The translations under genes were made by a program, and so were the position numbers. Source: Flagellimonas sp. HMM57 (GTDB lineage: Bacteria > Bacteroidota > Bacteroidia > Flavobacteriales > Flavobacteriaceae). Taken from it: a stretch of 64,000 nucleotides of DNA. Below the pieces are notes generated by a model, which was not told where the DNA came from, did not search any database, and saw only the letters and a list, made by a program, of their open reading frames with translations. The stretch's first letter is position 1, and every line of letters begins with the position of its first letter. Where the stretch lies: NCBI RefSeq assembly GCF_021390175.1, contig NZ_CP090004.1, forward strand, positions 3,091,001 to 3,155,000. Reading direction: 5' to 3'. Of the stretch, positions 1,283 to 25,629 are shown piece after piece.

Positions 1283-1373
1283 GTTTCACTAAAATTGTGC
1301 TAACTTTATGGAGCTTTGAGGCATGATTTGACTTTCGTCTTTACAAATTATTGTTGAACCAAAGTCATTGAAA

Positions 1374-2624
1374 ATGAAATCAAAAAGCACCTTCGCCATT
1401 ATTTTCTTCACCAGAAAATCAAGAAGCAATCCCAATGGGCTTTCCATCTATGTGCGAATTACCGTAGCGGGCAAACGAGCAGAAATCAGTCTAAAAAGGT
1501 GTGTAAATTCCGAGCAATGGGATTCCACTAGAAACAGGGGTAGGGGAAATTCAGAAAAAATAAGAGCCTTGAACGCCTATTTAGACCAAGTGTATGGCAA
1601 ACTACTCCAATGCCATAAACAGCTCACAGAGGAGGACAAAATAATATCCTCGGAGGCTATTAAATCCCGATACTTGGGAGAGGATTCGAACTGTAAAACT
1701 TTAAAAGAGTTAATAGCCTATCACAATGGTAGTATGATTCATGTCCTTAAAGCGGGAACGATGAAAAACTATTATACAACTGAAAAGTATTTAGAACGGT
1801 TTTTACTGAAAAATAGAAAAGTGAATGATATTTATCTGAAACAATTGAACTTTAGGTTTATCACGGACTTTGAGTATTATCTAAGAAACTGTAAAAACTC
1901 CAAAAAGGAGCTTGTTCTTGGAAATAACGGAGTGATGAAACATCTGGAACGTTTAAAGAAAATGACAAACCTAGCGGTTAAACTCGAATGGATGACCAAA
2001 AACCCATTTAACCAATTTCAACTAAAGTTCAATAAATATGACAGGGTATTTTTAAATGAAAGGGAACTAAACCTATTGGAGGGCACTGATTTTAAAAGTG
2101 AACGGTTACAGCGGGTAAAAGATTGTTTTATTTTTTCCTGCTACACAGGGCTGTCATATGTAGATGTCAAAGAACTAACTGAAATGAATATTGTCAAAGG
2201 TATAGATGATAACTACTGGATATATACCAAAAGGGAAAAGACGAATGAATCTGTAAAAGTTCCCATATTGCCCAAAGTATGGACAATACTTGAAAAATAT
2301 AGAGCAGCCCAAGATATGGGTGTCACAAACAATCTGTTGCCCATTAGCTCCAACCAAAAAGTAAATACTTACTTAAAAGAAATAATGAAATCCTGCGGTA
2401 TCCATAAGAACATTTCGTTTCATGTTGCCAGACATACCTTTGCTACTACGGTAATGCTGTCCAATGGGGTACCCATAGAAACGGTATCCAAACTCTTGGG
2501 ACATACTAAATTGTCCACGACCCAGATATATGCTAGAGTAGTCGAGAGTAAAATAAGCGAGGATATCAACAACTTATTGGAACGGTTTGAGCAAAAGAGA
2601 AGTAAAACCATAAGTAATTGTTGA
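1374..2624 (+). CDS. Tyrosine integrase of the tRNA-Pro element (phage integrase, SAM-like type)
   Basis: A 416-residue site-specific recombinase that would catalyse integration and excision at the tRNA-Pro end. Residues about 1-95 form the Bacteroidota arm-binding N-terminal domain, about 105-205 the SAM-like core-binding domain and 215-405 the catalytic domain. Visible catalytic residues are H350-x-x-R353 (HVARH), H377 (LGHT) and the nucleophile Y386 (IYARV). The position of the first conserved Arg carries Ser261 (TGLSYVD), as in the CTnDOT integrase IntDOT, so the enzyme may still be active. I chose the ATG at 1374; a TTG two codons upstream is possible. A decayed relative lies just beyond attR at 26162-26482. 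Confidence 0.93.
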   Translation: MKSKSTFAIIFFTRKSRSNPNGLSIYVRITVAGKRAEISLKRCVNSEQWDSTRNRGRGNSEKIRALNAYLDQVYGKLLQCHKQLTEEDKIISSEAIKSRYLGEDSNCKTLKELIAYHNGSMIHVLKAGTMKNYYTTEKYLERFLLKNRKVNDIYLKQLNFRFITDFEYYLRNCKNSKKELVLGNNGVMKHLERLKKMTNLAVKLEWMTKNPFNQFQLKFNKYDRVFLNERELNLLEGTDFKSERLQRVKDCFIFSCYTGLSYVDVKELTEMNIVKGIDDNYWIYTKREKTNESVKVPILPKVWTILEKYRAAQDMGVTNNLLPISSNQKVNTYLKEIMKSCGIHKNISFHVARHTFATTVMLSNGVPIETVSKLLGHTKLSTTQIYARVVESKISEDINNLLERFEQKRSKTISNC

Positions 2625-8860: not shown

Positions 8861-8907
8861 AATAATCTACAATATTTTATGAACCATTTAATGAAAAGAC
8901 CGTTTTT

Positions 8908-8979
8908 GTAAACTATGATTTCTAAACTTGTTCATTACTTCCATCAAGTTTACTTTAACCGTACACTTTAATAGTTTAC
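8908..8979 (+). other. Nested inverted repeats upstream of the serine recombinase, candidate res-like site
   Basis: Outer arms GTAAACTA (8908-8915) and TAGTTTAC (8972-8979), inner arms AAACTTG (8924-8930) and CAAGTTT (8945-8951). They end 25 bp before the ATG of the serine recombinase. Resolvases usually bind inverted subsites directly upstream of their own gene, which also gives autoregulation. The assignment is positional. Confidence 0.4.
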
Positions 8980-9004: not shown

Positions 9005-9670
9005 ATGAAGTTTGGCTATGCAAGGGTGAGCACAAAATCCCAAAAACACGATTTACAGGTAGATGCCTTTTTGAAAGAGGGTGTCAAAACAAAAAATATC
9101 TACGCCGATGTCTCATCAGGAGTAAAAAGTGAGCGGAAAGGTCTTGATGAAATGCTATCCAAATTAAGGGAGGGTGACACGGTCGTGGTCTGGAAGATGG
9201 ATCGGATTGCACGTAGTCTATCCCACTTGGTAAAGCTCATTGAAGATTTTGAGAAACGAGGTGTTCACTTCAAAAGTATTCAGGAAAACTTTATCGACAC
9301 TTCTTCCCCGCATGGTCGATTTGTGTTTAACCTGTTCGCATCCATAGCCCAATTGGAGCGTGATATCATTATAGAGAGAACACGGGCCGGTCTCGAAAGC
9401 TCAAGACGAAGAGGAGTTCGTTTGGGTCGCCAACCTGGTCTTAGCAAAAAGGCCTTACATAAGGCTATACTGGCCGAAAAATATTACCGGGATAATAAGT
9501 TGAGCATAGAGGAAATAATGAAGCTTTTAGAAATTGGTTCCAAACGTACTCTATATAAGTATTTGGCTCATCAAGGTCGGAGAACCTGTAAGGAGTGTGG
9601 TAAGTTGTTTTGGGATAAAAAGCAGGATCTTTCCAAAGCTTTTTGTGAAAAACATAAAGCCCTACAATAA
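9005..9670 (+). CDS. Serine recombinase (resolvase/invertase family) with a C-terminal zinc-ribbon-like tail
   Basis: A 221-residue small serine recombinase. The catalytic Ser9 lies in YARVSTKSQ. Other family blocks follow: WKMDRIARS (active-site Arg), GRFVFNLFASIAQLERDIIIERT and the helix leading to ARRGVRLGRQ-type sequence. A helix-turn-helix DNA-binding region spans about 145-190. The tail is unusual: CKECGKLFW then FCEKH gives a CxxC...CxxH set that could bind zinc. I use the ATG at 9005 because the residue numbering then matches the family; a TTG at 8981 is in frame. It may resolve or invert DNA within the element, probably at the inverted repeats just upstream. Confidence 0.9.
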   Translation: MKFGYARVSTKSQKHDLQVDAFLKEGVKTKNIYADVSSGVKSERKGLDEMLSKLREGDTVVVWKMDRIARSLSHLVKLIEDFEKRGVHFKSIQENFIDTSSPHGRFVFNLFASIAQLERDIIIERTRAGLESSRRRGVRLGRQPGLSKKALHKAILAEKYYRDNKLSIEEIMKLLEIGSKRTLYKYLAHQGRRTCKECGKLFWDKKQDLSKAFCEKHKALQ

Positions 9671-9870: not shown

Positions 9871-11466
9871 ATGAGAGAACATTTTAAAAAAGCACTTCTG
9901 AATATTATTAAACACGGAGATACTGACATTTTTCCATTTCCCTTTGAAAGGTATTTGTTTGAGGAAAAAAATACAGAGGTTTTAGATATTCTCGAAGCAA
10001 TTCACTCGAATTTAGATAATGCAATTAGTGAATCACCACCATTAACTTTAGTCAAGCTAAGTCCTGTTGGCTATTATGGATTTCGACAAGCTACAATGAT
10101 TGAGCCTTTTTGGAATGGCTACTTTCTTGGATTAGTAATTTCCCTAGCCGAAAAAATTGAAACAACAAGAATTAAAGAAGAAGAGAAAAAAGTATTTTCA
10201 TATCGCTATGAATGGGATAACTCAAAAGGTTCCTTATTTAAGGACACAACTTGGATAAGCTATAAAAAGCAGTGTATAGAGTATTCAAAATCTTCTGATT
10301 TTGTATTACAAACAGATATATCAAATTTTTATCCAAGAGTTAATCATCATAAATTAGAAAATGAACTAAGGCGTGTCGACCCGAGTACAGATATACCAAA
10401 AAAAATTCTTAAACTATTAAGTGTTTTTTCTGGCACTATCTCATATGGACTTCCAGTTGGCGGACCTGCCTCAAGGATACTCGCTGAACTAGCATTAAAT
10501 CATACAGATTTTCATTTGAAATCGAGAGGAATTAAATTCTGTAGATATGCAGATGATTACACAATTTTTTGTGACTCAGAATCTGAGGCATACAAGATAT
10601 TGATTCTGCTATCTGAAAAATTAGCCAATGACCAACTTGGTTTACAAAAAGGCAAAACAAAAATAATGTCATCAACGGAATATCAAGAGATACACCAGTT
10701 TCTTGACCCTAAACCAGTAGATGATGAAATTTCAGAGGAAGAGCAGAAATTACTTAGTATTTCTATACGTTTTGACCCTTATTCCACAACTGCTGTTGAG
10801 GACTATGAATCATTGAAAGATGCTGTTCGAGAAATTGATATAATTGGAATTCTTTCAAGAGAGGTTAACAAAACTAAAATTGACCAAACAGTAACAAAAC
10901 AGGCCATTAATTCTATTAAGGCATTAACAAAAGAGAATCAAGTCCAAGCAGTAAAAATTCTTTTAGACCAAGACAATCTGACTACGTTATCACCGGTTTT
11001 TACAACAATAATGCGTTCAGTAAGAAGTGTCTATGATGAATTATCAGAAGAAGGAAAAGATATTGTTGACGGTTCACTTTTAGAATTGTTTGCGACAGAG
11101 AATTATCTAACAAAAATTGAATTGAATTTAAATTATCTGATTCAAATTCTATCAATACGGCATTCACATCAAAAAGAAGAATTATTTGTCAAACTATTTG
11201 AAACAGAGACCAATCATTTTCTAAAAAGACAGATAATTGTTGCAATGACTAATTGGGAAAGTCATTACTGGCTAGTAGATATTAAGAATCAATTCACCAC
11301 ATTAACTACTTGGGAACGAAGAGCGTTTATTTATGCTTCCTACTGTTTAGGAGACGAAGGTTCACATTGGAGAAGAAATAATAAAAGCTTATTCAGCAAG
11401 GAGGAATTACTGATAAGAGATTGGTGCTCAGACAGAAAAACTTCAAATAGACCAATACTCGTATGA
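9871..11466 (+). CDS. Reverse transcriptase of the defence-associated (Abi / unknown group) type
   Basis: A 531-residue RNA-directed DNA polymerase. Motif A is QTDISNFYP with D149; the conserved GLPVGGPAS block is at 193-201; motif C is YADD at 226-229. The C-terminal half (about 290-531) has no RT motif and appears as a run of amphipathic helices, like the alpha-repeat tail of AbiA/AbiK-type and unknown-group RTs that act against phages. No group II intron maturase/HNH domain and no retron-like msr/msd structure is seen upstream. The stop overlaps the start of the nuclease-like gene (ATGA, 11463-11466), so the two are translationally coupled. The AT-rich sequence and location on an integrative element support a transferred defence gene. 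The RT family is certain; the defence role is inferred. Confidence 0.9.
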   Translation: MREHFKKALLNIIKHGDTDIFPFPFERYLFEEKNTEVLDILEAIHSNLDNAISESPPLTLVKLSPVGYYGFRQATMIEPFWNGYFLGLVISLAEKIETTRIKEEEKKVFSYRYEWDNSKGSLFKDTTWISYKKQCIEYSKSSDFVLQTDISNFYPRVNHHKLENELRRVDPSTDIPKKILKLLSVFSGTISYGLPVGGPASRILAELALNHTDFHLKSRGIKFCRYADDYTIFCDSESEAYKILILLSEKLANDQLGLQKGKTKIMSSTEYQEIHQFLDPKPVDDEISEEEQKLLSISIRFDPYSTTAVEDYESLKDAVREIDIIGILSREVNKTKIDQTVTKQAINSIKALTKENQVQAVKILLDQDNLTTLSPVFTTIMRSVRSVYDELSEEGKDIVDGSLLELFATENYLTKIELNLNYLIQILSIRHSHQKEELFVKLFETETNHFLKRQIIVAMTNWESHYWLVDIKNQFTTLTTWERRAFIYASYCLGDEGSHWRRNNKSLFSKEELLIRDWCSDRKTSNRPILV

Positions 11467-12194
11467 TTAGTGAGAGAGACATATCAGAAAAATTTAGTGC
11501 GATTTGGAAACAGAATTTTCCTCTTATGACACCAAGTTTTATGAGAGTTTTTAATGAAGCTCAAATAAAAACTATCAATAAAGATTCTATACCAAATAGC
11601 GAAAATGTTAGATATGATATTGTAGCTGAAACAGCCTTTAATCTGTGTGAAATTGCTACAGTTGGGGACAAAACGATAGACGAGATAATTGATGATGCGA
11701 AAAGGTTTAAAAAAATAGTTTCAGAAACCGCAGAATCGATTTGGACTTCAGGTAACTATTCAAAAAGTGATTTGAAAATTGAAAAATCCGAATTGAACGA
11801 AATTCGAAATATATGTTCTAACACTTTAGAGTTCATACAGCTATTAAAAAAAGATAAAGTTGAATTTAAACCTAAATTAAAGGGATACAGTTTTATTCCA
11901 GATTTAACTGCAGATGTATCAATTGACGACACATTGTACGAAATCAAAACTGTTAATCGAAATTTTAAGTCGAGCGATTTAAAACAACTTTTTATTTACT
12001 TAGCTCTAAAACAAGTTGAGGATGGCAAAAATTGGAAATATGCTGGCTTATACAATCCGAGAAAAGGGACATTTTGCAAGTTTAACGTGAAGAGCTTGAT
12101 TTACAACTTAACTGGAGGAAAAACACCAAACGAAACTTTGGAAAACCTACTGAATGGACTGATGAGAGACATAGAAGTTGACAGCAAGTTCTAA
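11463..12194 (+). CDS. PD-(D/E)XK nuclease-like partner of the reverse transcriptase
   Basis: A 243-residue protein whose second half carries a PD-(D/E)XK pattern: P146-D147 (SFIPDLTADV), E160-x-K162 (LYEIKTV) and a following Q175-xxx-Y (QLFIYLAL), all in the right order and spacing. The N-terminal 130 residues are helical and unassigned. The 4-bp overlap with the RT gene makes a two-gene operon likely, with the nuclease perhaps as effector triggered by, or trimming, the RT product. Without homologues to compare, the nuclease call depends on the motif alone. I do not know a named system with exactly this pair. Confidence 0.7.
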   Translation: MISERDISEKFSAIWKQNFPLMTPSFMRVFNEAQIKTINKDSIPNSENVRYDIVAETAFNLCEIATVGDKTIDEIIDDAKRFKKIVSETAESIWTSGNYSKSDLKIEKSELNEIRNICSNTLEFIQLLKKDKVEFKPKLKGYSFIPDLTADVSIDDTLYEIKTVNRNFKSSDLKQLFIYLALKQVEDGKNWKYAGLYNPRKGTFCKFNVKSLIYNLTGGKTPNETLENLLNGLMRDIEVDSKF

Positions 12195-12268
12195 TAAAAC
12201 TGTGGACAACAATGTGTCCTATGAAAAGTCATAGTCTAGTCTCTCAAAGCAACTAAAAATTCAAAAAA

Positions 12269-12949
12269 ATGGCGAGAATAAATAGGATGGGGGATTCTAA
12301 ATTATGGCTTTTTCATGCTGATGAAGTTATGTTGGATTTCAAGTTTGACCCTATAATTTCTTATCTAGAGGAATCTGAAGTAATGATAAGGAGGAAAGGA
12401 GAAGAGATTAAGCTAAAATTTAAGAAATGGGAAAAAGAGCATGCAGATAATCCAGATGTTCCGGATGCTTTTGATATTTACGAAAATGAAGTGTTAAATC
12501 ATGAGAAATTTCCTGAGCTATTAAATAACTCTATTTTTCTGGTAATTTACTCTTTGTTTGAATCTCACTTTGAAGAGCTATGTGTACTTGTTGGAAAAAA
12601 GATTGGTAGTTCTCTTCACGTAAAAGATTTGGCTGGAGGAAATTATATTGAACTATGTCGCAACTATTTAGTCAAGGTAGTAGGTGTTGACCTTGAACCT
12701 TTAAATACAGAATGGGCTCAAATCAGAAAACATCAGATTCTTCGAAATGCAATAGCTCATAATAAAGGTAAGCTTAAAAAAATAGATGCTGATTTGGAAA
12801 GATTTATAGAAAACAAGCCTGGAGTGAATCTAGTTAATCATGAAATTTATATTGAAAAGATTTCATTCCTAACATCCTTCATAGATTTAATTAAGAAGTA
12901 TTTTACAAATATGAATTCAATCTTGGCCAAACATATCTATAAACAGTAA
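12269..12949 (+). CDS. HEPN-like protein with an RNxxxH motif
   Basis: A 226-residue, mostly helical protein. It contains R159-N160-AIA-H164 (LRNAIAHNKGK), the Rx4-6H signature of HEPN ribonucleases in its common RNxxxH form, preceded by helices as in MAE_28990/pEK499-type HEPN proteins. It could be a toxin RNase or a defence effector. It starts 74 bp after the RT/nuclease pair and could be a third member, but its 3' end is the first clear copy of the 18-bp array motif (12948), so it may equally be a cassette. An ACAACAATGTG boundary-like sequence lies between it and the nuclease gene. No signal peptide or membrane segment is seen. Confidence 0.65.
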   Translation: MARINRMGDSKLWLFHADEVMLDFKFDPIISYLEESEVMIRRKGEEIKLKFKKWEKEHADNPDVPDAFDIYENEVLNHEKFPELLNNSIFLVIYSLFESHFEELCVLVGKKIGSSLHVKDLAGGNYIELCRNYLVKVVGVDLEPLNTEWAQIRKHQILRNAIAHNKGKLKKIDADLERFIENKPGVNLVNHEIYIEKISFLTSFIDLIKKYFTNMNSILAKHIYKQ

Positions 12950-12972
12950 AGTTCAAAAAAAGGATAAAGTAT

Positions 12973-13362
12973 ATGCTCGAAGGTATTGCCGAAATTCTAA
13001 TTTCAGTCTTGGATTTATTCTGGCTTGGTTCCAATTCTAAGAAAAGAAGGCATTCCAAAATAAATCGAGTTGTTGAGGATTGGTCAAAAAAGGTTGGGCT
13101 TCATCCACAATATGAATATAAAGATGATAAGGTACGTTCGATGAAGGTAGTGGATGATGCTGGAAACGATTATCAAATTTGGATTGAAACTCTCAAATGG
13201 AGACGTTTGAAAGTTTGGGTATCCAATAATAAGAGTGGGAAAAAGAATAAAAAATGGAAAAGAACAGGTAGAGATTCCAATCTTACCAAAGTTTTATTTG
13301 AAGCCTATGGGGTTGTCGAACAATGGATTTTGAAAAGCGGTAACACAAGAACTATATACTAA
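12973..13362 (+). CDS. Hypothetical protein, 129 aa (array gene)
   Basis: Not recognised. The first 20 residues are hydrophobic (GIAEILISVLDLFWLG) and may form a membrane anchor; the rest is soluble, basic and rich in Trp and Lys (KWRRLKVWVSNNKSGKKNKKW). It lies between two copies of the 18-bp motif, which begin 1-2 bases inside the flanking stop codons. Its neighbours are other small, unrelated proteins, in line with a set of accessory or immunity-type cassettes. No catalytic motif is apparent. Confidence 0.65.
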   Translation: MLEGIAEILISVLDLFWLGSNSKKRRHSKINRVVEDWSKKVGLHPQYEYKDDKVRSMKVVDDAGNDYQIWIETLKWRRLKVWVSNNKSGKKNKKWKRTGRDSNLTKVLFEAYGVVEQWILKSGNTRTIY

Positions 13363-13385
13363 AAAGTTCAATTTAACGATTTGTT

Positions 13386-13589
13386 TTGAATATCAAATCA
13401 TGGATATATAAAGTTGTGGTTTTCTTTTTGGTGATTTTAATAGTGGTAGATATCCTGATATTGATTAACTACTTTTTAAAGGATTATGGAGAAACGAGAA
13501 CGATTGAGGATATTAACAGATCGGTCTTAATTTTTCTCCCAATGACAATAATCTGTTTTATCTTAGAAAAGATATTAAGAAACAGATAA
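13386..13589 (+). CDS. Small membrane protein, 67 aa (array gene)
   Basis: Two predicted transmembrane helices (about 8-28 and 48-62: VVVFFLVILIVVDILILI and LIFLPMTIICFIL) joined by a polar loop (KDYGETRTIEDINRS). The start is a TTG lying 5 bp behind a copy of the motif; no ATG gives the first helix. The function is unknown. Small two-helix proteins are common among immunity factors and stress peptides. Confidence 0.55.
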   Translation: MNIKSWIYKVVVFFLVILIVVDILILINYFLKDYGETRTIEDINRSVLIFLPMTIICFILEKILRNR

Positions 13590-13603
13590 AGTTCAAATAA
13601 AGA

Positions 13604-13981
13604 ATGAAGATAATTAAAAAAACTTTACTCTATTTATTAAGCCTGATTTCCCTATTGGCATTCTATTATCTACTAAGTTTTCTATTCATATTATTCGAAA
13701 GATTATCGAATTTCTGGATAGTTCTTATAACAATCTTAGGAGCAGGACTTATTGGTTTTATTACATTTGATTACATTCAATTGCTCAATAGACTCATACC
13801 TGCAAACAAGATTTTAAATGGAATATTTATACTTTTTGCTTTGGGATTTGGATTATTGAATGTTATGATACATTGGCAAATAGATATAGGTCAAATGCCA
13901 AGAATCTGTTTTACCCTCATTTTTGCTGGATCGTGTTTTATGATAATAAGATCCAGAATTTTTATTCCAGAAAGGCATTAG
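13604..13981 (+). CDS. Polytopic membrane protein, 125 aa (array gene)
   Basis: About four transmembrane helices (roughly 7-30, 36-56, 66-86, 95-115), short loops and a basic N-terminus (MKIIKK). The ATG overlaps the last base of a motif copy (13588-13605). Not assignable to a known family. It shares the design of the other array genes: small, single domain, membrane or envelope directed. Confidence 0.6.
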   Translation: MKIIKKTLLYLLSLISLLAFYYLLSFLFILFERLSNFWIVLITILGAGLIGFITFDYIQLLNRLIPANKILNGIFILFALGFGLLNVMIHWQIDIGQMPRICFTLIFAGSCFMIIRSRIFIPERH

Positions 13982-14035
13982 TATGTTCAAGTATTAAATT
14001 ATATATCAAAAAGTTCAAATAAAGGATTCTTATTT

Positions 14036-14269
14036 ATGGAGATTGAAGATGAATACAATAGATTGATGAAGTACTTTGGAGAATCCAATATCAAAACAGA
14101 ATATATCCTTGATTCAAATTTAGAGATACTTGACCCAAGACAATTTTCGCAAATCAAATTGACTTACCTGCCTCTGAATCTAGAAATAATTGGGGATCGA
14201 AAATTGACCCAACTTGAGAATGCAGTTGACGCATTAAGAAGGTTAAAACTAGTTGTAAACAAAGAATAA
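14036..14269 (+). CDS. Hypothetical small cytoplasmic protein, 77 aa (array gene)
   Basis: Not recognised. A soluble acidic product with a central LEILDPRQFSQIKLTYLPLN segment and leucine-rich spacing; no signal peptide or membrane segment. It is the only clearly cytoplasmic protein in the middle of the array. Motif copies lie on both sides (14010 and 14268). Confidence 0.55.
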   Translation: MEIEDEYNRLMKYFGESNIKTEYILDSNLEILDPRQFSQIKLTYLPLNLEIIGDRKLTQLENAVDALRRLKLVVNKE

Positions 14270-14287
14270 AGTTCAAATAAACAATAG

Positions 14288-14695
14288 ATGAGAATAAAAT
14301 TATCCTTGTTTATTTTATTAGCCATAATGGTAAGTTCATGCGGTCCTTATCTAACATGTGAAAAAGTTAAAACAGGGGCCTTTTATATGATATATTCCGA
14401 CAAGGATTCTGTTCTAATGGAAAGAAAAGGAAATGTCCAGGTAGAGTATTCGGGTCTTAGAGATAAAGAAAATGGCGCTTATTCTAATCTAGAATGGATT
14501 GATGAATGCACATATAGATTAAAATTTGACGAAAGCAAGCATGAACTAAACAAATCACAAAAGCTTGTCAATGATAATAATGGAATTGTTGTCACACAAA
14601 CTCCACTGAATGACAGATGTATGTACTATACAGCAGTCTTAACTCTAGCTAACGGTAAATCCGTGAAAAAAATAGGACGGATATGTTTGAAATAA
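14288..14695 (+). CDS. Lipoprotein, 135 aa, of a small GxFY...WxxECxY family (array gene)
   Basis: The leader MRIKLSLFILLAIMVSSC gives a lipoprotein with Cys18. The mature part has the pattern C-x5-GAFYMIY...VEYSG...LEWIDECTYRL. The same order (GTFFY, TEYFRG, LVWVNECEY) occurs in the minus-strand gene at 20111-20623, so the element encodes two diverged members of one envelope protein family. Family function is unknown. Motif copy 14268 lies directly upstream. The stop at 14693-14695 is followed by an ACAACAATGGC sequence like the ends of other cassettes in the element. Confidence 0.7.
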   Translation: MRIKLSLFILLAIMVSSCGPYLTCEKVKTGAFYMIYSDKDSVLMERKGNVQVEYSGLRDKENGAYSNLEWIDECTYRLKFDESKHELNKSQKLVNDNNGIVVTQTPLNDRCMYYTAVLTLANGKSVKKIGRICLK

Positions 14696-14781
14696 AACTA
14701 TCCACAACAATGGCTAAATATATAGCTAACCTTAATCAAAGTTTAAATAAACGATTCCCTTCGCAAAAGACGATTAGTGAA

Positions 14782-15288
14782 ATGACTCGACTTTTAATTT
14801 TGATATTTATGTTTTCATTTTTTGGATTAGGAAAAGGTAGAGCTCAAGAAAAAAATTCGACAGAAGAGCCAAAAGGAATAATTGGCAGATATTACGAAGA
14901 TGGTCTTCCAGTAATTATGAAATTTGTGAATGAGCCCCCAAATGATTCAATCGTAAGCAAATTTCCATTCCTTACGGTGGTCTCATGGAAATATGATGGA
15001 GGTGAGAGAAACGGAATGCCTACTAAAAGCGTTAACGAAAGAATGATTGTACTTGAGGGAGCTTTAGAAAGTTCGATGAGTAATTCAGACATTTTTACTC
15101 ACGTTTACAGTAGAACGGGAAATAGTTTAAAAGAACTGGTTTATTATACCACTAAGCAAGACGAATTTATGAAAATGCTCAACGGTGCTTTAGAAAATCA
15201 TGATGTTTTTCCTATTGAAATAAACTTTTATGAGGATAAGGAGTGGACCGATTTCAAGAGGATACTCAAAGATTTTAAACAGAAATAA
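14782..15288 (+). CDS. Secreted protein, 168 aa (array gene)
   Basis: I place the start at the ATG at 14782 because it yields a clean signal peptide (LLILIFMFSFFGLGKGRAQ) and lies just after a motif copy (14738-14755). The frame is open further upstream to 14683, but that extension overlaps the preceding gene and reads through the motif. The mature protein is soluble with no recognised domain; its tail is rich in Glu and Lys. Probably periplasmic. Confidence 0.6.
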   Translation: MTRLLILIFMFSFFGLGKGRAQEKNSTEEPKGIIGRYYEDGLPVIMKFVNEPPNDSIVSKFPFLTVVSWKYDGGERNGMPTKSVNERMIVLEGALESSMSNSDIFTHVYSRTGNSLKELVYYTTKQDEFMKMLNGALENHDVFPIEINFYEDKEWTDFKRILKDFKQK

Positions 15289-15305
15289 AGTTCAAAAAAA
15301 CGATT

Positions 15306-15746
15306 GTGAAGAGTTCAAAGATTTTAGCAATAGTGGTTCTGGTTTTAGTCGGATGGATTTTTGGATTTTACTTAATGAAAAAAAAGGTCAATAACGCCAT
15401 AGGGCTTAATGATGATTTTTTCATAAGGGTTGCAAACACATATTACAATGATAGTTTTAGTGGGGTTATATCAAAAAAGCTTGTTGACTGGGAGCAACAT
15501 GGATATAAAAAAGTTGTTCTTGTAAATCAATATGAAACAAGAGAGGTAAGGTTTGACTATGAGTGGGCAGAACTATTTAAGTTCTTAAAGATAGGTGACT
15601 CGGTTACTAAAGAGAAGAAAACCTTGGATATGAGATTAAGAAGGAGAGAACTAGATACCATGATTAGGCTTAACTTTTCAAACATAAAGGATAGCTGGGA
15701 CTATATTGATTTCTTACATGAATTAGATAGTATATACGATAGATAA
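15306..15746 (+). CDS. Membrane-anchored hypothetical protein, 146 aa (array gene)
   Basis: One N-terminal transmembrane helix (about 5-24, ILAIVVLVLVGWIFGFYL) followed by a periplasmic domain with many aromatic and charged residues (ANTYYNDSFSGVISKK; DYEWAELFKFLKIGDS). It uses a GTG start lying directly behind motif copy 15287. Proteins of this shape, with a segment like FSGVI..K, occur in flavobacterial genomes as uncharacterised cassettes; no activity is known. Confidence 0.6.
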   Translation: MKSSKILAIVVLVLVGWIFGFYLMKKKVNNAIGLNDDFFIRVANTYYNDSFSGVISKKLVDWEQHGYKKVVLVNQYETREVRFDYEWAELFKFLKIGDSVTKEKKTLDMRLRRRELDTMIRLNFSNIKDSWDYIDFLHELDSIYDR

Positions 15747-15782
15747 AGTTCGATAAAACCATGAGTCTTTAATGACAGCTTT

Positions 15783-16055
15783 ATGATAAGAAGCTTTAAG
15801 CAAATACCTGCCGCACTTGTTGTTTTTCTAAATATCTACTTCCTGTGGTGCACTTTTGTAATAATTAAAGACGCCGGAGGGTCCATGGGAATTGGATTAA
15901 TAGCCTTGCCAATAACACTTTCTATCAACTTATTGTTGCTTCCTGCTATTGTAGAAATTAGGTTTAGTAGAAAAGGTATCTGGCTAACAATTATCAATAT
16001 ATTGGGTTTGATTTGGTCCTTATTCTGGTTAATTTTTTTCCTAAAAACTAAATAA
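15783..16055 (+). CDS. Membrane protein, 90 aa (array gene)
   Basis: Three predicted transmembrane helices (about 8-27, 34-56, 66-86). The ATG is 20 bp behind the least conserved motif copy (15745). Not recognised. The small size and lack of soluble domain fit the rest of the array. Confidence 0.6.
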   Translation: MIRSFKQIPAALVVFLNIYFLWCTFVIIKDAGGSMGIGLIALPITLSINLLLLPAIVEIRFSRKGIWLTIINILGLIWSLFWLIFFLKTK

Positions 16056-16076
16056 GTTCAAATAAACGATTGTAGC

Positions 16077-16490
16077 TTGAGTCTAAATTTTAAACTTCCT
16101 AAAACACTATGGATAACATGGATATCTCTTTTGTTGGGAATAGTTGTACTTGGTTTGATTGGGGAAATATCCGACTTTGACAGCGAGGTTGATAGTATAA
16201 GTCAAGTGTTGGGAATTGGTATTTTAGGTTCAATTTTTTCCTTTTTTACCTATGGTATTATAATATGGCCACCGACATTAATTTTCATGTTAGTTTTTGA
16301 ACTCGCATTTTCAAAAAAGAAATTACGATATACCGAAATCAAAAGGTTATTGATGATCGAGTTTATTATTGTTTCTATTCCATTTGCAATCTGGGCCATG
16401 ACAGAAGATTATCTTTACTGGTATTATTTCATTGGCGTACTTGCCATAAGTCAAGTATTTAGATTTCGAGACCTAACAAAAGTTCAATAA
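16077..16490 (+). CDS. Membrane protein, 137 aa (array gene)
   Basis: Four predicted transmembrane helices (about 12-30, 44-72, 88-106, 110-126). The start is a TTG 6 bp behind motif copy 16054; no ATG preserves the first helix. The last codons and the stop lie inside the next motif copy (16479-16496). Not recognised. Confidence 0.55.
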   Translation: MSLNFKLPKTLWITWISLLLGIVVLGLIGEISDFDSEVDSISQVLGIGILGSIFSFFTYGIIIWPPTLIFMLVFELAFSKKKLRYTEIKRLLMIEFIIVSIPFAIWAMTEDYLYWYYFIGVLAISQVFRFRDLTKVQ

Positions 16491-16494
16491 AACA

Positions 16495-17037
16495 ATGACA
16501 ACACAGTTAGATAAATCACTAATCCTCATGGCCATTATCTTAATATGCTTTTGGGGTTGTAAAAATGAGGTTTCGTTGGAGTTGATTCAACAAAGTGACT
16601 TAAGTGAAAAGTTTACTGTTGGCAGCCCAAAAAATTGGCATGTTGAAAAAGAAAATTCAGAGCGCCACTCTACCATCATTGCTAGCGATACATCACAAAC
16701 AATTAAAGAAACAATATTGGTTCATTTGACATGGAATGATTGGGAAATTTTTTTGAATGATCACTTTGAAAGCTCCATGGACTCCATAAATAAAAACGGA
16801 GGATTTCAAACTTCAAATCAAAAATTTTACACTTTAAACAGTTTTGATATCTACGAATATTCTGCAAAGGGGATAGATTCTTTGAACAACTTGAACCTTC
16901 GCACGAGGAACTTTTTCTTAAGAAAAGATGGACTAGATGGTTCATTGAATTTGAACATCAGTGCCCACAATAGAGAATTTGACAGACAAGATTCTTTACT
17001 GATAAATCGTATTTTGGGTTCCATAAAGGGCAAATGA
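16495..17037 (+). CDS. Lipoprotein, 180 aa (array gene)
   Basis: The leader ends LICFWGC, giving a lipidation Cys at about residue 22. The mature domain has a FTVGSPKNWHVEKE opening and a beta-rich body resembling PsbP/Mog1-like folds (short surface lipoproteins with a W-containing first strand). That comparison is a guess. The ATG overlaps the end of motif copy 16479. It is the last complete gene of the array. Confidence 0.6.
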   Translation: MTTQLDKSLILMAIILICFWGCKNEVSLELIQQSDLSEKFTVGSPKNWHVEKENSERHSTIIASDTSQTIKETILVHLTWNDWEIFLNDHFESSMDSINKNGGFQTSNQKFYTLNSFDIYEYSAKGIDSLNNLNLRTRNFFLRKDGLDGSLNLNISAHNREFDRQDSLLINRILGSIKGK

Positions 17038-17049
17038 AAATTTTGATAA

Positions 17050-17439
17050 AGTTCAAATAAACGATATTTAAGGGCTTCCAATTTTGAAGAATCAGACTTA
17101 AAAAATACTGCATTGATAAATACAGACTTAAGAGAAACAAAATGGAAAAGGAGTAGTTTGAAAGGAGCGGTATTGTGGGGAGAGAATCTGCATCATGCTG
17201 ATTTTACAGATATTTGGTCACTGGATAGTGTAAAAGTAGATAGGTATGATTGGTTGACTTACATTAAGGACAGCCTAAATTTAAAGGGGGCTAATGATAT
17301 TTTCAAACAATATAGAATGGACAGTATTTTGTATTTTGAAGATTCAATTGTTAAGGTCCATATTATAATTAGAAAAACACCTTATAGCACAAGAGAATTA
17401 CCAACTTTTGAGTTAGGAAGAAGAATCGCCATCGATTAA
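17050..17439 (+). pseudogene. Pentapeptide-repeat protein, 5' truncated at the array motif
   Basis: The frame is open from 17050, inside motif copy 17048, with no ATG. Read from the motif it gives pentapeptide-type repeats (LRASNF EESDLKNTALI NTDLRE TKWKR SSLKGA). A TTG at 17113 could start a 108-residue product, but this would cut the repeats. The repeat region is followed by a 60-residue unassigned tail. The coding sense runs right up to the motif, suggesting that the gene's 5' part was lost by recombination there. Confidence 0.55.
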
Positions 17440-18070: not shown

Positions 18071-18748
18071 ATGACCATGAACAAAAATAAGTTTCTACTT
18101 CAATTAGTAGTTACATGTTCAATTTTGATATCCAAAACCTATGGGCAAAGGATTACCGGTAACGAAAAAATTGATCATGATATTCCAGGGGAACTGACAG
18201 AATTCCAGGACTTCAATGACTTTGTAGATTTGAGTACGGGAAAAATTCACCCTACAATCGGACTTTTCAGTCTCGAAGGAATCAATTTAAAGCACGATAT
18301 ATCACTTACCTATAACAGTGCCAGTAATCGAGTAGATGCCATAAATGGTGAACTGGGAATGGGGTGGACCTTGAATGTCGGAGGTTACATTACCAGGAAA
18401 GTTAGGGGTGTCCCTGATGAATCAACGGTTTTCACCTCTATACCAAGTTCTGCTGATGAAACGGAATGTTTGAATTATAGAGAAGATGGTCAGATACAAG
18501 CTGAACAGTGTTTTTTTAACAAGGGGTATTTTGATATGGGAGTCCAAGGAAAAGCGCATCGAAAAGGATATTTGGATTACCATGTAAAGAATTGCGTTGG
18601 ATCAATATGCGATCTGACTTTTTTGTATGGTGATCGTGATGAAAGTTATACCTATGGGGAATTGATTGATGACTTCTTCTGTAAGCCTATTATTAGTCAA
18701 ACATACCCAAGAAGTGGTACTATTGGTGGGTCAGAGTGGTGGTCATAG
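18071..18748 (+). CDS. N-terminal part of an RHS/YD-repeat secreted protein, truncated
   Basis: 225 residues with a signal peptide (FLLQLVVTCSILISKTYGQ) and the typical opening of Bacteroidota RHS/YD-repeat proteins: DLSTGKIHPTIGLFSLEG, then SLTYNSASNRVDAINGELGMGWTLNVGG. In such proteins, usually well over 1000 residues, this is the start of the beta-sandwich/YD barrel. Here the frame ends at TIGGSEWWS, and a C-terminal-like part follows in another frame at 18736. The central YD repeats are absent, so a large deletion with a frame change is likely. Full-length relatives are polymorphic toxins or surface proteins; this copy is probably inactive. Confidence 0.7.
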   Translation: MTMNKNKFLLQLVVTCSILISKTYGQRITGNEKIDHDIPGELTEFQDFNDFVDLSTGKIHPTIGLFSLEGINLKHDISLTYNSASNRVDAINGELGMGWTLNVGGYITRKVRGVPDESTVFTSIPSSADETECLNYREDGQIQAEQCFFNKGYFDMGVQGKAHRKGYLDYHVKNCVGSICDLTFLYGDRDESYTYGELIDDFFCKPIISQTYPRSGTIGGSEWWS

Positions 18749-19425
18749 GGAATTTTTGGAAACGTTTGAAAAGAGGTGTCAAGCGAGTGACACAGGGCAA
18801 GCAGTGTAGCTGTGATGCCATTGAATCAGTAGCGGATGCTTTTGAAAGGCCTGACTTTTTACCAAGACAAGGAAAAGGAAAGCGTAAACGTTCTAAAAGT
18901 TCTGGAAGTACCGTAAAGAGAGAAAGAAAAGCTAGGGCTGGCAACACCTCTGGCATAGCTGCAATAGATTTGCCGCATGGTTTTGCAACACCTAATTTGG
19001 GCAACATCCTTTTTCCAAGACCTTCAATTCCTATGTTTCAAGGAAGAGAAATCGCTACGAGACTTACAGTGCCAACCCGTATCAACTTCTCGGGCAACGA
19101 TGGCACGGTCTTGGATAGAAACGATAATGTGAACAACAGGACGTTGAACGCCATCGTAAAGACCTTACAGGACTATCCACAATTAAAGATGTTCATGTAC
19201 GTGAACTTCCTGACGGATATAAAGGCAAAGGGCAGTTTTGACAAGGACAGGCACAGAGGGCTTGTCTCCAAGAGGGCTGCGGCGATTATCAAGTTCTTCG
19301 AGAACCAGGGAATCGACCCTGAAAGGATAAACTGGGATTTTGACCCGAAAAGGTTCGAGACCAGGAGAAGGCCAGACAATACGATACGTGACGACCAAAA
19401 GTTCGAGTTGAGAAACAACAACTAG
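18736..19425 (+). CDS. C-terminal part of the RHS-type protein with an OmpA-like end
   Basis: The product begins in the basic linker often seen after the RHS core (FWKRLKRGVKRVTQGK, then KGKRKRSKSSGSTVKRERK). The last 120 residues resemble an OmpA-family peptidoglycan-associated domain: INFSGNDGTVLDRN, a helix (LNAIVKTLQDYPQLKMFMYVN) and LVSKRAAAIIKFFENQGIDPERI. The start codon would be GTG; there is no signal peptide, so on its own it could not reach the envelope. It is most likely the tail left by the deletion that removed the YD repeats. The stop lies 2 bp before the next gene. Confidence 0.55.
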   Translation: MVVIGNFWKRLKRGVKRVTQGKQCSCDAIESVADAFERPDFLPRQGKGKRKRSKSSGSTVKRERKARAGNTSGIAAIDLPHGFATPNLGNILFPRPSIPMFQGREIATRLTVPTRINFSGNDGTVLDRNDNVNNRTLNAIVKTLQDYPQLKMFMYVNFLTDIKAKGSFDKDRHRGLVSKRAAAIIKFFENQGIDPERINWDFDPKRFETRRRPDNTIRDDQKFELRNNN

Positions 19426-22683: not shown

Positions 22684-24045
22684 CTAATATTGCTTTGTTA
22701 TGGGTTTTATAATACGGATATCAGTTTTTGGCCTATAGGCAAGGGTTACTTCGTATTCGATTTCTGTATTGGAAGGAACTTCTATTTCAAAGTTCGATTT
22801 TAGCATATGATACAAAATAACTTGCATCTCCATAAGTGCGAGATTCATTCCAATACACATTCTGGGACCTCTTCCAAATGGTATATAAGCATATTTATGG
22901 GGAAGTTCTTGATCAAAACGATCTGGGTCAAAAACATTCGGATTTTTCCAAAATTTTTTGTGACGATGAATCAATTGTGAAACCATTAGAATTGTATCTC
23001 CTTTCTTAATGGGATAACCGTTCATTTTCTCATTTTTAATCGCTTCCCTCCCTTGCATAAAGGCAGGAGACCATAACCGTAAGCTTTCATTGATTACGTT
23101 ATTGACATATTGAAGCTGATCGACGTGTTCAACTTTAATAGGGCCGCCTTTGGTGACACGATCATATTCTTCGACCACTTTTTTTCTGATAACGTCATCT
23201 TTATATACATTTACTATCAATGAAAACAGGGCTGTTGCAGTAGTTTCATATCCCGCTGACATAAGGGTCACGAACTCATTATAAATCTGTTTTTTGGGGA
23301 TCTCTCCACTTCTTTCGAGGAGGATGAACATGGTCATCAGATCATTTCCCGTAAGGTTTTCTTCCTTTTCTTTGCTTCTTATGACCTCAATTAGAAATTT
23401 TTTGAGTTTCGTAACTGATTTATTGAATTTTCGATTTTTTGCCGTTGGAAACCATAAAGGTGGCTGTATAGGGGATTTGACACGCCCCATTATTGTAACC
23501 ATGCCATTAAAAAGATTTTCTTTAATGATTTTGGCACCACCTTCTACATTCTCTCCCATAAAACATTTCGAGGTGACATCCAGCACAAGATCGCCCATCT
23601 CGGAACGAAGCCATAGCTCGGGCTTTGATGGCCAATCCTTGAACATCTTTTTTGCATGATTATTAATTATTGTAAAATAGGAGCGAACCATTTCTTTATG
23701 AAAATAGGGTTGCATCAAACGGCGCTCTTTCTTCCATTGTTCGCCTTCTAAAGCAAAAAGACCATCACCTATTACTTTTATGATCAGTTTGACAAGAGAA
23801 AACTGTTTATAATTACGATGGTTTGTTTGTAATACATGTTGTATATGGTCTGGATGATTGATTGCTATAAATCTTTTATGCGCTATTCTGAACTGAAAAA
23901 TATCACCATAGGTTTCTGCACATTTTTTCAAAAACCTATCTGGATCTTTGGAGAAAGATTTCATGTTACCAAATAACCAGCTATCGGGCTTGACTTTGGG
24001 AATCTGTTTGGGTGTCATATCATTATAAATTATTAAATTTTTCAC
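22684..24045 (-). CDS. Cytochrome P450 partnered with a terpene synthase
   Basis: 453 residues. All P450 landmarks are visible: C-helix W104-xxx-R108, I-helix AGYETT (264-269), ExxR at E320-R323 (NESLRLW) and the haem loop FGRGPRMCIG with proximal Cys397. There is no membrane anchor, as in bacterial soluble P450s. The gene follows a terpene synthase after 3 bp, so the pair is an operon that would make a cyclic terpene and oxidise it. No dedicated ferredoxin or reductase is encoded in the window, so host redox partners are needed. The location within a tRNA-borne element marks the pathway as horizontally transferred. Confidence 0.95.
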   Translation of the reverse strand: MKNLIIYNDMTPKQIPKVKPDSWLFGNMKSFSKDPDRFLKKCAETYGDIFQFRIAHKRFIAINHPDHIQHVLQTNHRNYKQFSLVKLIIKVIGDGLFALEGEQWKKERRLMQPYFHKEMVRSYFTIINNHAKKMFKDWPSKPELWLRSEMGDLVLDVTSKCFMGENVEGGAKIIKENLFNGMVTIMGRVKSPIQPPLWFPTAKNRKFNKSVTKLKKFLIEVIRSKEKEENLTGNDLMTMFILLERSGEIPKKQIYNEFVTLMSAGYETTATALFSLIVNVYKDDVIRKKVVEEYDRVTKGGPIKVEHVDQLQYVNNVINESLRLWSPAFMQGREAIKNEKMNGYPIKKGDTILMVSQLIHRHKKFWKNPNVFDPDRFDQELPHKYAYIPFGRGPRMCIGMNLALMEMQVILYHMLKSNFEIEVPSNTEIEYEVTLAYRPKTDIRIIKPITKQY

Positions 24046-24048
24046 ATG

Positions 24049-25293
24049 TTATTCTTTTATGAAGTATTTCTTACAAAGCTCCAGATTATAGCGGGGAGAT
24101 AGAATATGGAATGTTGTAGAGCTAAAGCATACAAAGAATAGAACCTCAATATAGAGATCATATATTTTTTTGTCCAATTCCGAAGAGATGGACATATTTT
24201 CTAGCAACTTTATAAGCTTCGAGAAAGAAGCCCGTGCAATATCAATGGACATATCAATTCCGGCATACAATTGTTCTTCCTTGGACTTATCCGGATATTC
24301 TTGCTTACCTAGAAATACGACCGGATTAGCAACTAGATGTTCTGAATCGCTAAGAATGGAAAATATATCATTTATCAAACAACAATATTCTGCAGCAGAC
24401 CGCACTGAAGATTTTATCTTCTCCGATCTTAGAAAATCAGTTATCCGTGAGTGGTCATTAATACTACGTTCTTGACCAAGAATATGCATATGATTTACAA
24501 TGACCCATTGAAACCCTGATGAAAGAACACGGGTCTTCATATATTCCTCAAGAACAGGTGAATCATTTGAATGTGTATACTTTTCTATTTCACCATGGAA
24601 GTATACGATCTGTCGTCGATATTCATCAAATACAATTTTAAGGGTTTCGGATGTAAGTACCTTATATCCTTCTATATAACAAAGATCAAATAGAATGCAA
24701 AATTCATAGAACACTTTTTGGATCTGTTTGTTTTCCGTAATATTGGAAACATCCTGAGGTGTTCTGACCTCGTGTACATTTTTATATTCAATTCCATCAA
24801 AATGAACTAAAACTTGATCCACAATTCCAAGAATTGATTTCCCATTAACGTACAGTTCACGTACATCATCAAATAACATATCAAGGAGCCATATCGATGC
24901 TGTTGCCAACACCAAATATGTATGTGCCTTTGAAAACTTGCCAATACGTTTCCGATTACTGGCATCTTGGGGTTTAATACCATGGGGATAAGTATAGAAA
25001 CAGTACAATAGACCAAGATCGGTAGCTTTTTGGGAAAACATACCTAGGTCATATTGTTTCAACAGATTATGAACATATTCTGTTCTTTGTTTTTGGTACC
25101 CGCAATTTGATTTTGGGGAAAGCTCGGACTTCTTACCAATATCAATCCATTTTGATAACCAATCGTCACATAAGTACATAGCTTTAAGGACTTCTTTCCA
25201 TTGGTCATCATCATATGTTATATGAGGACCGAACACTTCATGAAAACGATCAGATAATGCTTCTTGACATCCAAGATTTGTATTTACTTCCAT
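24049..25293 (-). CDS. Class I terpene synthase (terpene cyclase) with variant metal motifs
   Basis: 414 residues, helical. The first metal-binding motif is DMLFD at D138-D142 (WLLDMLFDD), a DDxxD variant with Met at the second position. The second motif is N308-D309-x-x-S312-x-x-x-D316 (NDIFSILSD), the NSE triad with Asp replacing Glu. The pyrophosphate sensor Arg255 lies in EYMKTRVLSSG and the C-terminal R401-Y402 pair in SPRYN. Together these identify a cyclase acting on farnesyl or geranylgeranyl diphosphate; the chain length cannot be read off. It is the first gene of the operon with the P450. The N-terminus contains no second (prenyltransferase) domain. Confidence 0.9.
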   Translation of the reverse strand: MEVNTNLGCQEALSDRFHEVFGPHITYDDDQWKEVLKAMYLCDDWLSKWIDIGKKSELSPKSNCGYQKQRTEYVHNLLKQYDLGMFSQKATDLGLLYCFYTYPHGIKPQDASNRKRIGKFSKAHTYLVLATASIWLLDMLFDDVRELYVNGKSILGIVDQVLVHFDGIEYKNVHEVRTPQDVSNITENKQIQKVFYEFCILFDLCYIEGYKVLTSETLKIVFDEYRRQIVYFHGEIEKYTHSNDSPVLEEYMKTRVLSSGFQWVIVNHMHILGQERSINDHSRITDFLRSEKIKSSVRSAAEYCCLINDIFSILSDSEHLVANPVVFLGKQEYPDKSKEEQLYAGIDMSIDIARASFSKLIKLLENMSISSELDKKIYDLYIEVLFFVCFSSTTFHILSPRYNLELCKKYFIKE

Positions 25294-25578: not shown

Positions 25579-25612
25579 CATGAGGAAAAATAATTGGGAG
25601 TTGTTACCTTTT

Positions 25613-25629
25613 AAGTTCAAATAAACGAT
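25613..25629 (+). repeat. Isolated copy of the 18-bp array motif
   Basis: AAGTTCAAATAAACGAT, identical to the array copies at 16054 and 17048 over 17 bases, directly downstream of the recombinase remnant and 8.5 kb from the rest of the array. Confidence 0.8.

Follow-up and report, generated by a model that had tools for sequence, protein, structure and literature searches.

The window analyzed here, 64,000 nucleotides of the Flagellimonas sp. HMM57 genome (contig NZ_CP090004.1, positions 3,091,001 to 3,155,000), carries an array of small co-oriented genes that are separated by an 18-bp motif, AAAGTTCAAATAAACGAT, and headed by the gene for a small serine recombinase. Units bounded by the motif are found again in other species among unrelated neighbors, and motif and recombinase are linked. 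We are confident, if short of certain, that the array belongs to an integron-like system in which a resolvase-type serine recombinase captures gene cassettes. The comparisons below suggest that the motif-bounded units are very likely mobile and that the serine recombinase is likely the enzyme that moves them. The original prediction made on this DNA had proposed a gene-capture array resembling the recombinase-associated immunity gene arrays (rAID) of Bacteroidales, and the presence of motif-bounded units in other species with different neighbors, together with the link between motif and recombinase, supports this.

The motif array in the window

Eleven motif copies lie within 12948-17065, all on the plus strand, between about ten small genes that likewise all read in the plus direction. 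A scan of the window at up to three mismatches gave 11 matches, all on the plus strand (10 within 12948-17065 and one at 25612), and a copy with four mismatches at 15745-15762 brings the array total to eleven. Shuffled versions of the 64-kb window gave a mean of 0.32 matches and a maximum of 2. The scan confirmed the prediction of eleven same-direction copies separating short genes. The predicted start of the unit at 12948 has to be revised, as the array is actually headed by the recombinase gene about 4 kb upstream of this position (9005-9670), and a DRT8 operon (9871-12949) precedes the first motif. A short tyrosine recombinase had also been expected, and the Pfam and PDB matches identify the head enzyme as a serine recombinase instead. 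Several stop codons overlap the motif (...TAAAGTTC...). The features, all on the plus strand unless marked otherwise, are as follows.

8899-8916, minus strand: site-I-like companion that is inverted relative to the motif, with a degenerate sequence in the window genome; from the upstream-region comparison
8946-8979: conserved block of 34 bp (site-II-like) ahead of the recombinase gene; from the upstream-region comparison
9005-9670: small serine recombinase, 221 aa, Resolvase domain (Pfam PF00239, E 3.2e-43) and, by eye, a C-terminal CxxC...CxxxH stretch
9871-11466: predicted DRT8-type defense reverse transcriptase, first-position cargo (PADLOC Drt8, E 1.4e-164; Pfam RVT_1)
11463-12194: predicted DRT-associated PD-(D/E)XK nuclease (PADLOC RTasPDDEXK, E 4.2e-66)
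12269-12949: weakly HEPN-like protein (RTasHEPN, E 4.6e-4; HEPN_RiboL-PSP, E 0.0048, below cut-off), stop codon overlapping motif 1
12948-12965: motif 1, 2 mismatches; putative recombination site
12973-13362: cassette gene, 129 aa, no assigned family (no Pfam family above cut-off)
13363-13380: motif 2, 2 mismatches
13386-13589: cassette gene, small membrane protein, 67 aa; related proteins are encoded in cassettes of loci L025 and L096
13588-13605: motif 3, 2 mismatches
13604-13981: cassette gene, membrane protein, 125 aa (open reading frame)
14010-14027: motif 4, 1 mismatch
14036-14269: cassette gene, 77 aa, no assigned family (open reading frame)
14268-14285: motif 5, 1 mismatch
14288-14695: cassette gene, lipoprotein-like, 135 aa; related proteins are encoded in L024 and L026 cassettes
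14738-14755: motif 6, 1 mismatch
14782-15288: cassette gene, secreted DUF695 protein (PF05117, E 5e-12 with a longer frame of the same protein)
15287-15304: motif 7, 1 mismatch
15306-15746: cassette gene, 146 aa, N-terminal membrane segment; similar cassette in L026
15745-15762: motif 8, degenerate, 4 mismatches
15783-16055: cassette gene, membrane protein, 90 aa (open reading frame)
16053-16070: motif 9, 1 mismatch
16077-16490: cassette gene, membrane protein, 137 aa (open reading frame)
16479-16496: motif 10, 3 mismatches
16495-17037: cassette gene, lipoprotein-like, 180 aa (open reading frame)
17048-17065: motif 11, last array copy, exact consensus (0 mismatches)

The HMM57 genome (one 4.16-Mb contig) holds 19 matches to the 17-bp core of the motif at up to two mismatches, and three to the reversed pattern. 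Ten of the 19 fall in the window and nine of these in the array, so that the motif is not a general leader of core genes, as the prediction had allowed it might be.

Cassettes recur as motif-bounded units

To avoid circularity, whole loci were aligned independently of any cassette definition, using 82 loci with at least three motif copies; 12 loci that repeat stretches of longer ones were dropped. Inside the arrays, 78 shared segments (180-6000 bp, at least 85% identical) were found. Measured on one locus of the two, 120 of their 156 ends fell no more than 5 bp from a motif and 133 no more than 20 bp, compared with 4.1% and 7.9% for random placement, and 57 of the 78 segments had both ends within 20 bp. 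One segment is shared within a genome; for the 77 shared between genomes, 118 of 154 ends were within 5 bp of a motif. Eight segments are common to arrays of both recombinase clades.

Cutting the loci at the motifs gave 473 distinct cassettes (median 553 bp, same-place duplicates removed). There are 156 pairs of similar cassettes, of which 61 align over the whole length between motifs and the other 95 over part of it. Unrelated DNA was found on both sides in 55 of the 61 full-length pairs, six share one neighbor, and none shares both. Forty-nine of the 55 pairs are between genomes and six within one genome, and one pair involves the window. At least 90% identity was seen in 43 of them (39 between genomes), and the moved cassettes form 38 families. 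The order of cassettes also changes: two of 1044 and 420 bp are adjacent in L025, and apart and in reversed order in L029. Between species, the array is not the stable operon that the prediction had named as its other alternative, as both order and neighbors change.

Two cassettes of the window illustrate this. The one at 15287-15745 is 79% identical, motif to motif, to a 440-bp cassette of Flagellimonas beolgyonensis (L026) with unrelated flanks. The DUF695 cassette is matched by 87% identical DNA over 527 bp in L172, where the sequences diverge just past the downstream motif; no motif was recognized upstream of the L172 copy.

The moved cassettes also indicate where the unit ends. At motif position 0, none of 58 downstream sites differed (12.8 differences expected), and 15 differences were found in the upstream site (12.8 expected); members of one cassette family are not independent in these counts. 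Because the first base of the downstream site never differs and that of the upstream site behaves as if unlinked, the left end of the motif belongs with the preceding gene.

Motif and recombinase occur together

At up to one mismatch, the motif was detected in 54 of 60 genomes of the genus (Allomuricauda/Flagellimonas), that of the window included (463 matches, 11 for the reversed pattern), and in none of 39 genomes from other families of the order. Matches were found in 50 of 299 genomes drawn from the family (45 of 236 genera) and matches to the reversed pattern in 17, so many of the single family-wide matches may be due to chance. Eight family genomes outside the genus have from 4 to 29 copies. 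Relatives of the recombinase also occur in Euzebyella, Pareuzebyella, Maribacter, Arenibacter, Aquimarina, Robiginitalea, Winogradskyella, Pricia, and others.

Of the larger loci, 27 contain a recombinase, and 23 of these carry an enzyme at least 54% identical to that of the window. Same-direction motif copies lie downstream of the gene in 20 of the 23 loci and upstream in none (reversed control, 0). No motif copies were found in the four loci with a 42% identical relative. A set of 80 recombinase loci from named genomes (of 86; some are the same places as in the larger-locus set) gave a similar picture, with same-direction copies downstream in 60 loci (269 matches, one for the reversed control) and a single same-direction match upstream, in L137. 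The genus genomes with a recombinase of at least 50% identity (n = 31) have a median of 10 motif copies, and those without one (n = 29) a median of 3 (p ~1e-5, with relatedness ignored).

A quick tree, which includes two long-branched outgroup rows, resolved two array-bearing groups of recombinases with 64-91% and 51-60% identity to the window enzyme (support 92 and 96). Genome G009 is syntenic with genome G023 until about 115 bp before the inverted site, where the two begin to differ; as the right end was not found, no insertion boundary is proved by this comparison. Two genus genomes (L079 and L080) have a common array in which four cassettes are 100% identical and the recombinase is broken in both. 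One recombinase relative (L122) was retrieved from a metagenome bin labeled Oleispira (Gammaproteobacteria), perhaps owing to a binning error. No recombinase relatives were found in viral contigs, six of which have one exact motif each, and every relative among the best 5000 matches in plasmid records was below 60% identity.

Within the HMM57 genome, three co-oriented motif copies with small genes at 1.358-1.366 Mb (L002:18632, L003:268, and L003:5658) could be a second, decayed array. The recombinase search of the genus genomes found no second recombinase in this genome. The lone copy in the window outside the array (25612-25629, 1 mismatch) is about 33 bp 3' of a frame that, by eye, resembles the C-terminus of a tyrosine recombinase.

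The recombinase, its upstream region, and leaders

In the PDB search, the window recombinase matched a DNA-invertase (4m6f, E 4.5e-38) and gamma-delta resolvase (2gm4, E 1.1e-32). It did not reach the cut-off of any of the Mpi, Ccr, or XisF models, scoring 64.6 bits for the Mpi model NF009949 (cut-off 272) and 50-56 bits for the Ccr-type large serine recombinase models (cut-offs 700-900).

In most of the 82 upstream regions compared, an oppositely oriented core site, ACCGTTTTATTGAACTTT, occupies roughly positions -105 to -88 relative to the start of the recombinase gene. On its 3' side is a 34-bp block common to both recombinase clades, with the consensus AGTTtA.TTT..CggtatAatTaAaTAGTTTAc, ending TAGTTTAc. 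A third site adjoins the ATG in the second recombinase group and in two loci of the first (L026 and L028). Five regions (L084, L086, L160, L169, and L171) did not fit this order of blocks. In the 27 larger loci, motif sites with up to two mismatches upstream of the recombinase were in opposite orientation only, at offsets of -6 to -93. The order of core site, 34-bp block, and third site resembles that of sites I, II, and III in the res region of Tn3-type resolvases, and by this analogy the upstream region may be res-like, with the 34-bp block as an accessory site.

Some arrays have a conserved leader beside the first site. The block ACCGAAAACCCAATTTTTGATTAATGGAAATTTCCTACATTTA abuts the first motif, between it and the recombinase, in part of the first group (L033, L068, L069, and L097), and it also precedes the first motif in L019, L027, and L188/L010, where no recombinase was found. 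The leader includes TACATTTA, which we take to resemble the Bacteroidota -7 box, and thus appears promoter-like. No such leader was found in the window with up to five mismatches, and BLAST searches using the leaders gave no matches. The general Bacteroidota promoter consensus was found once in the cassette starts and once in the control.

A related conserved leader of about 90 bp opens some cassettes (L028:17655, L021:7477, L174:2020, L176:109, L181:3803, and others). It resembles that found 3' of some second-group recombinases and has an inverted repeat, GATGTATTTTACATC. A loose 13-mer of this leader was detected in 35 of the 473 cassettes (19 in the control stretch), and about 16 of the 30 matches displayed look genuine by eye. 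Cassettes that open in this way possibly carry mobile promoters. In addition, a dispersed non-coding repeat of about 50 bp (about GGTCTTTTTTAGTAGTTTCGTTAATT) is located just left of many recombinase platforms in many genomes (for example, L068:1665-1717), and it was also found beside the 42% identical recombinase relatives and elsewhere in several genomes. No Rfam family was detected in the first 6 kb of L068.

Cargo of the arrays

The longest frame is co-oriented with the array in 441 of the 473 cassettes, with median gaps of 16 and 22 bp from motif to stop and start codons, respectively. The 453 cassette proteins fall into 355 clusters, 294 of them with a single member. In a sample of 140 proteins, no Pfam family was matched by more than two, and PADLOC likewise gave at most two members per family. 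The 25 of 98 Pfam families listed include SUKH (2 proteins), Imm33-like (1), RES, RhuM, GNAT, DinB, and beta-lactamase-like; a ParE-like cluster was recognized only by reading its sequence. The cargo appears to be mostly uncharacterized small membrane, lipo-, and secreted proteins, with few that look like immunity or toxin-antitoxin proteins. The prediction that the cargo protects against the toxins of neighbors is supported only in part, the SUKH and Imm33-like proteins being the immunity families among those listed for the sample.

First-position genes, those located between the recombinase and the first motif, were collected from 88 loci, up to three per locus (6 kb was taken where no motif was found), and 129 of the 133 proteins were scanned. 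Pfam matches include AAA_21 and AAA_15 (7 each), Methylase_S (5), HsdM_N (4), N6_Mtase (4), OLD-like TOPRIM (3), Schlafen AlbA_2 (3), and MmeI (2), and also TPR and AhpC/Redoxin (3 each) and Amidohydro_3 and beta-lactamase (2 each). PADLOC matches include type I methyltransferases (8), AriA (6), and specificity subunits and Mads proteins (5). Judging by these matches, first-position genes look richer in defense than the other cassettes. In the window, the predicted products of 9871-12949, between the recombinase and the first motif, clearly point to an anti-phage DRT8 operon. The protection against phages that was also part of the original prediction is well matched by the predicted functions here and frequently so among first-position genes elsewhere.

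Two other regions of the window lie 3' of the array. Just beyond it, at 18071-19425, a 225-aa fragment resembles the N-terminus of SpvB/Rhs proteins, and the frame after it is unrelated; the DUF6531 and SpvB matches were below cut-off, and the region is possibly the remnant of a polymorphic toxin gene. Two adjacent minus-strand genes at 22684-25293 are cytochrome P450-like and terpene synthase-like from their sequences, no family search having been made.

Alternative explanations

Under one alternative, the genes form an ordinary polycistronic operon in which the motif is a conserved leader for translation or a spacer. Such a role would suit a motif that abuts stop and start codons and some variants of which read AAAGGAT, like a ribosome-binding site. 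Against it, units lie between unrelated neighbors in other species, the motif is rare outside arrays, as the counts in its own genome indicate, and the 39 genomes of other families of the order have no match. We regard this explanation as ruled out, with next to no residual probability, by the rarity of the motif and by the shared segments that end at it. Alternatively, homologous or microhomology recombination between scattered copies of an 18-bp repeat could reshuffle the cassettes with no dedicated enzyme. This would agree with the crossover position within the motif, which looks variable. However, 18 bp is short for homologous recombination, and neither the polarity behind one recombinase nor the conservation of the site across genera would be explained; we consider this very improbable. 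A somewhat better, though still unlikely, candidate is that the units are mobile and moved by another enzyme, either the chromosomal XerCD or a tyrosine recombinase acting in trans; the serine recombinase would then be a mere passenger, linked to the units and resolving the element to which it belongs. Many motif clusters have no recombinase nearby (two of four in genome G017, for example), genome G049 has 25 motif copies and no recombinase at 50% identity or above, and tyrosine recombinases were noted near some arrays (window 1368-2624 and, by eye, L025:8573-9847). Set against this are the position of the serine recombinase, which in 60 of 80 loci from many genera is followed by copies in its own direction and has a single such copy ahead of it, and the inverted copy of the motif core in the recombinase's own upstream region.

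A capture system driven by the serine recombinase has to be weighed against several observations that do not sit easily with it. The partly matching pairs make up 95 of the 156 pairs of similar cassettes, and in 21 of the 78 shared segments one end or both are over 20 bp away from any recognized motif. Five of the 21 involve L018 (only part of the 21 was inspected), where the motif is likely too degenerate to count. Motif positions 9-10 are unlinked to either side, and positions 14-15 differ more in the upstream site (11 and 7) than in the downstream site (3 and 2), so a simple central crossover does not fit. The 18 bp alone are conserved (128 sites; at most 0.45 bit outside), and crossover sites of resolvases and invertases are longer, at about 26-28 bp. 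The inverted companion is unlike the attI of integrons, and there is no motif array on its far side in either the 27- or the 80-locus set. Moreover, recombinase and motif are not always found together. Two loci (L064 and L074) have no same-direction copy over 17-18 kb downstream of the recombinase, and a third (L088) is short. Among the 80 named-genome loci, 20 lack a same-direction copy at up to two mismatches, 14 of them with more than 10 kb downstream, and a motif profile run over 19 loci without clear copies gave few sites, several of which are the inverted companion. The frequent motif clusters away from any recombinase count here as well, as do the many recombinases with stops or frameshifts. 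Finally, the evidence is comparison of sequences from one genome per species.

Proposed mechanism and implications

In the capture system that we favor, a cassette would consist of one small gene, sometimes an operon, and the 18-bp motif 3' of it. The serine recombinase, encoded at the array head and in the same direction, would act on the motif. Recombination between two direct copies would excise the cassette as a circle, which could be inserted by recombination with a motif elsewhere, possibly the first site. An asymmetric core, if the motif has one, would impose the one-way layout of the array, and in some relatives the cassettes may be expressed from the leader between the recombinase and the first site.

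With somewhat less confidence than in the capture system as such, we consider it probable that this is an independently evolved counterpart of integrons in several marine Flavobacteriaceae genera, in which a small resolvase-type serine recombinase with a res-like control region would capture, store, and reshuffle single-gene cassettes at an 18-bp double-stranded site. To our knowledge, the known gene-cassette arrays, integrons, rAID, and pdif modules, all rest on tyrosine recombinases, and no serine-recombinase cassette array was found in the literature searched, mainly open-access titles and abstract openings. If true, the integron way of life has evolved more than once, and there is a second enzymatic solution to the stockpiling of genes, often with phage defense first and many small uncharacterized genes behind. 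Serine recombinases cut and rejoin double-stranded DNA, and for this reason the system could be a simple gene-stacking tool. The cassette proteins (355 clusters), being mostly uncharacterized, are candidates for new anti-phage and interbacterial defense.

Comparison with known systems

Several systems share single traits with the array. As in SCC elements (staphylococcal cassette chromosome), a serine recombinase would move gene cassettes. The Ccr enzymes of SCC belong to the large serine recombinases, and each insertion involves one large element, whereas the window protein is far below the cut-offs for large serine recombinases. It also misses the cut-off of the model for Mpi, the DNA invertase of Bacteroides. 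A DNA invertase system has a segment flanked by inverted sites; the array sites are direct repeats, and sites in opposite orientation occur only just upstream of the recombinase. Tn3-type resolvases act at a res region of several sites. The array shares with them a resolvase-family enzyme, and its conserved multi-block upstream region (core site, 34-bp block, and a third site mainly in one clade) is reminiscent of res. It differs in having further copies of the core site, as direct repeats that enclose cargo, on the other side of the recombinase gene. A transposase next to the window recombinase was not noticed; the relatives were not searched for one.

The pdif modules of Acinetobacter plasmids likewise consist of genes between short recombination sites, and they are shuffled from one replicon to another. 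The pdif sites are 28 bp long, bound by XerC/XerD, and alternate in orientation, whereas here 18-bp direct repeats in one orientation follow a dedicated serine recombinase. In the rAID (recombinase-associated acquired interbacterial defense) of Bacteroidales, as described in PMC12247911, short orphan immunity genes lie in one orientation behind a predicted tyrosine recombinase, and conserved motifs occupy the intergenic spaces. The host phylum (Bacteroidota) is the same here, and so is the row of short genes that all follow a recombinase in one direction and have conserved motifs between them. The rAID orphan immunity genes of the type VI secretion system have about 100-300 codons. The cassette genes are of fitting size, but the listed families of the sample include only the SUKH and Imm33-like ones mentioned above. 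The differences from rAID are the serine recombinase, the Flavobacteriaceae host, and the mixed cargo with few recognized immunity proteins.

The closest likeness is to integrons. An integron consists of the recombinase gene intI, an attI site, and gene cassettes with attC sites. The arrays similarly have a recombinase gene at one end and a row of small genes in one orientation, with a putative recombination site after each gene, and these site-bounded cassettes are very likely mobile. Some have a promoter-like leader beside the first site, some lack a recombinase, and the cargo is mostly uncharacterized, with some toxin-antitoxin and defense genes. In contrast to integrons, the enzyme is a serine recombinase instead of the tyrosine recombinase IntI, it reads with the array, and an inverted site lies upstream of it. 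The 18-bp site is also without the folded single-stranded structure of attC. An attC-type site was rejected, as four sites with their flanks folded no better than shuffles (z of 0.96, 0.02, -0.23, and 0.35) and the flanks are unconserved. The array works like an integron, yet it departs from the definitions of both integrons and rAID at the enzyme and the site.

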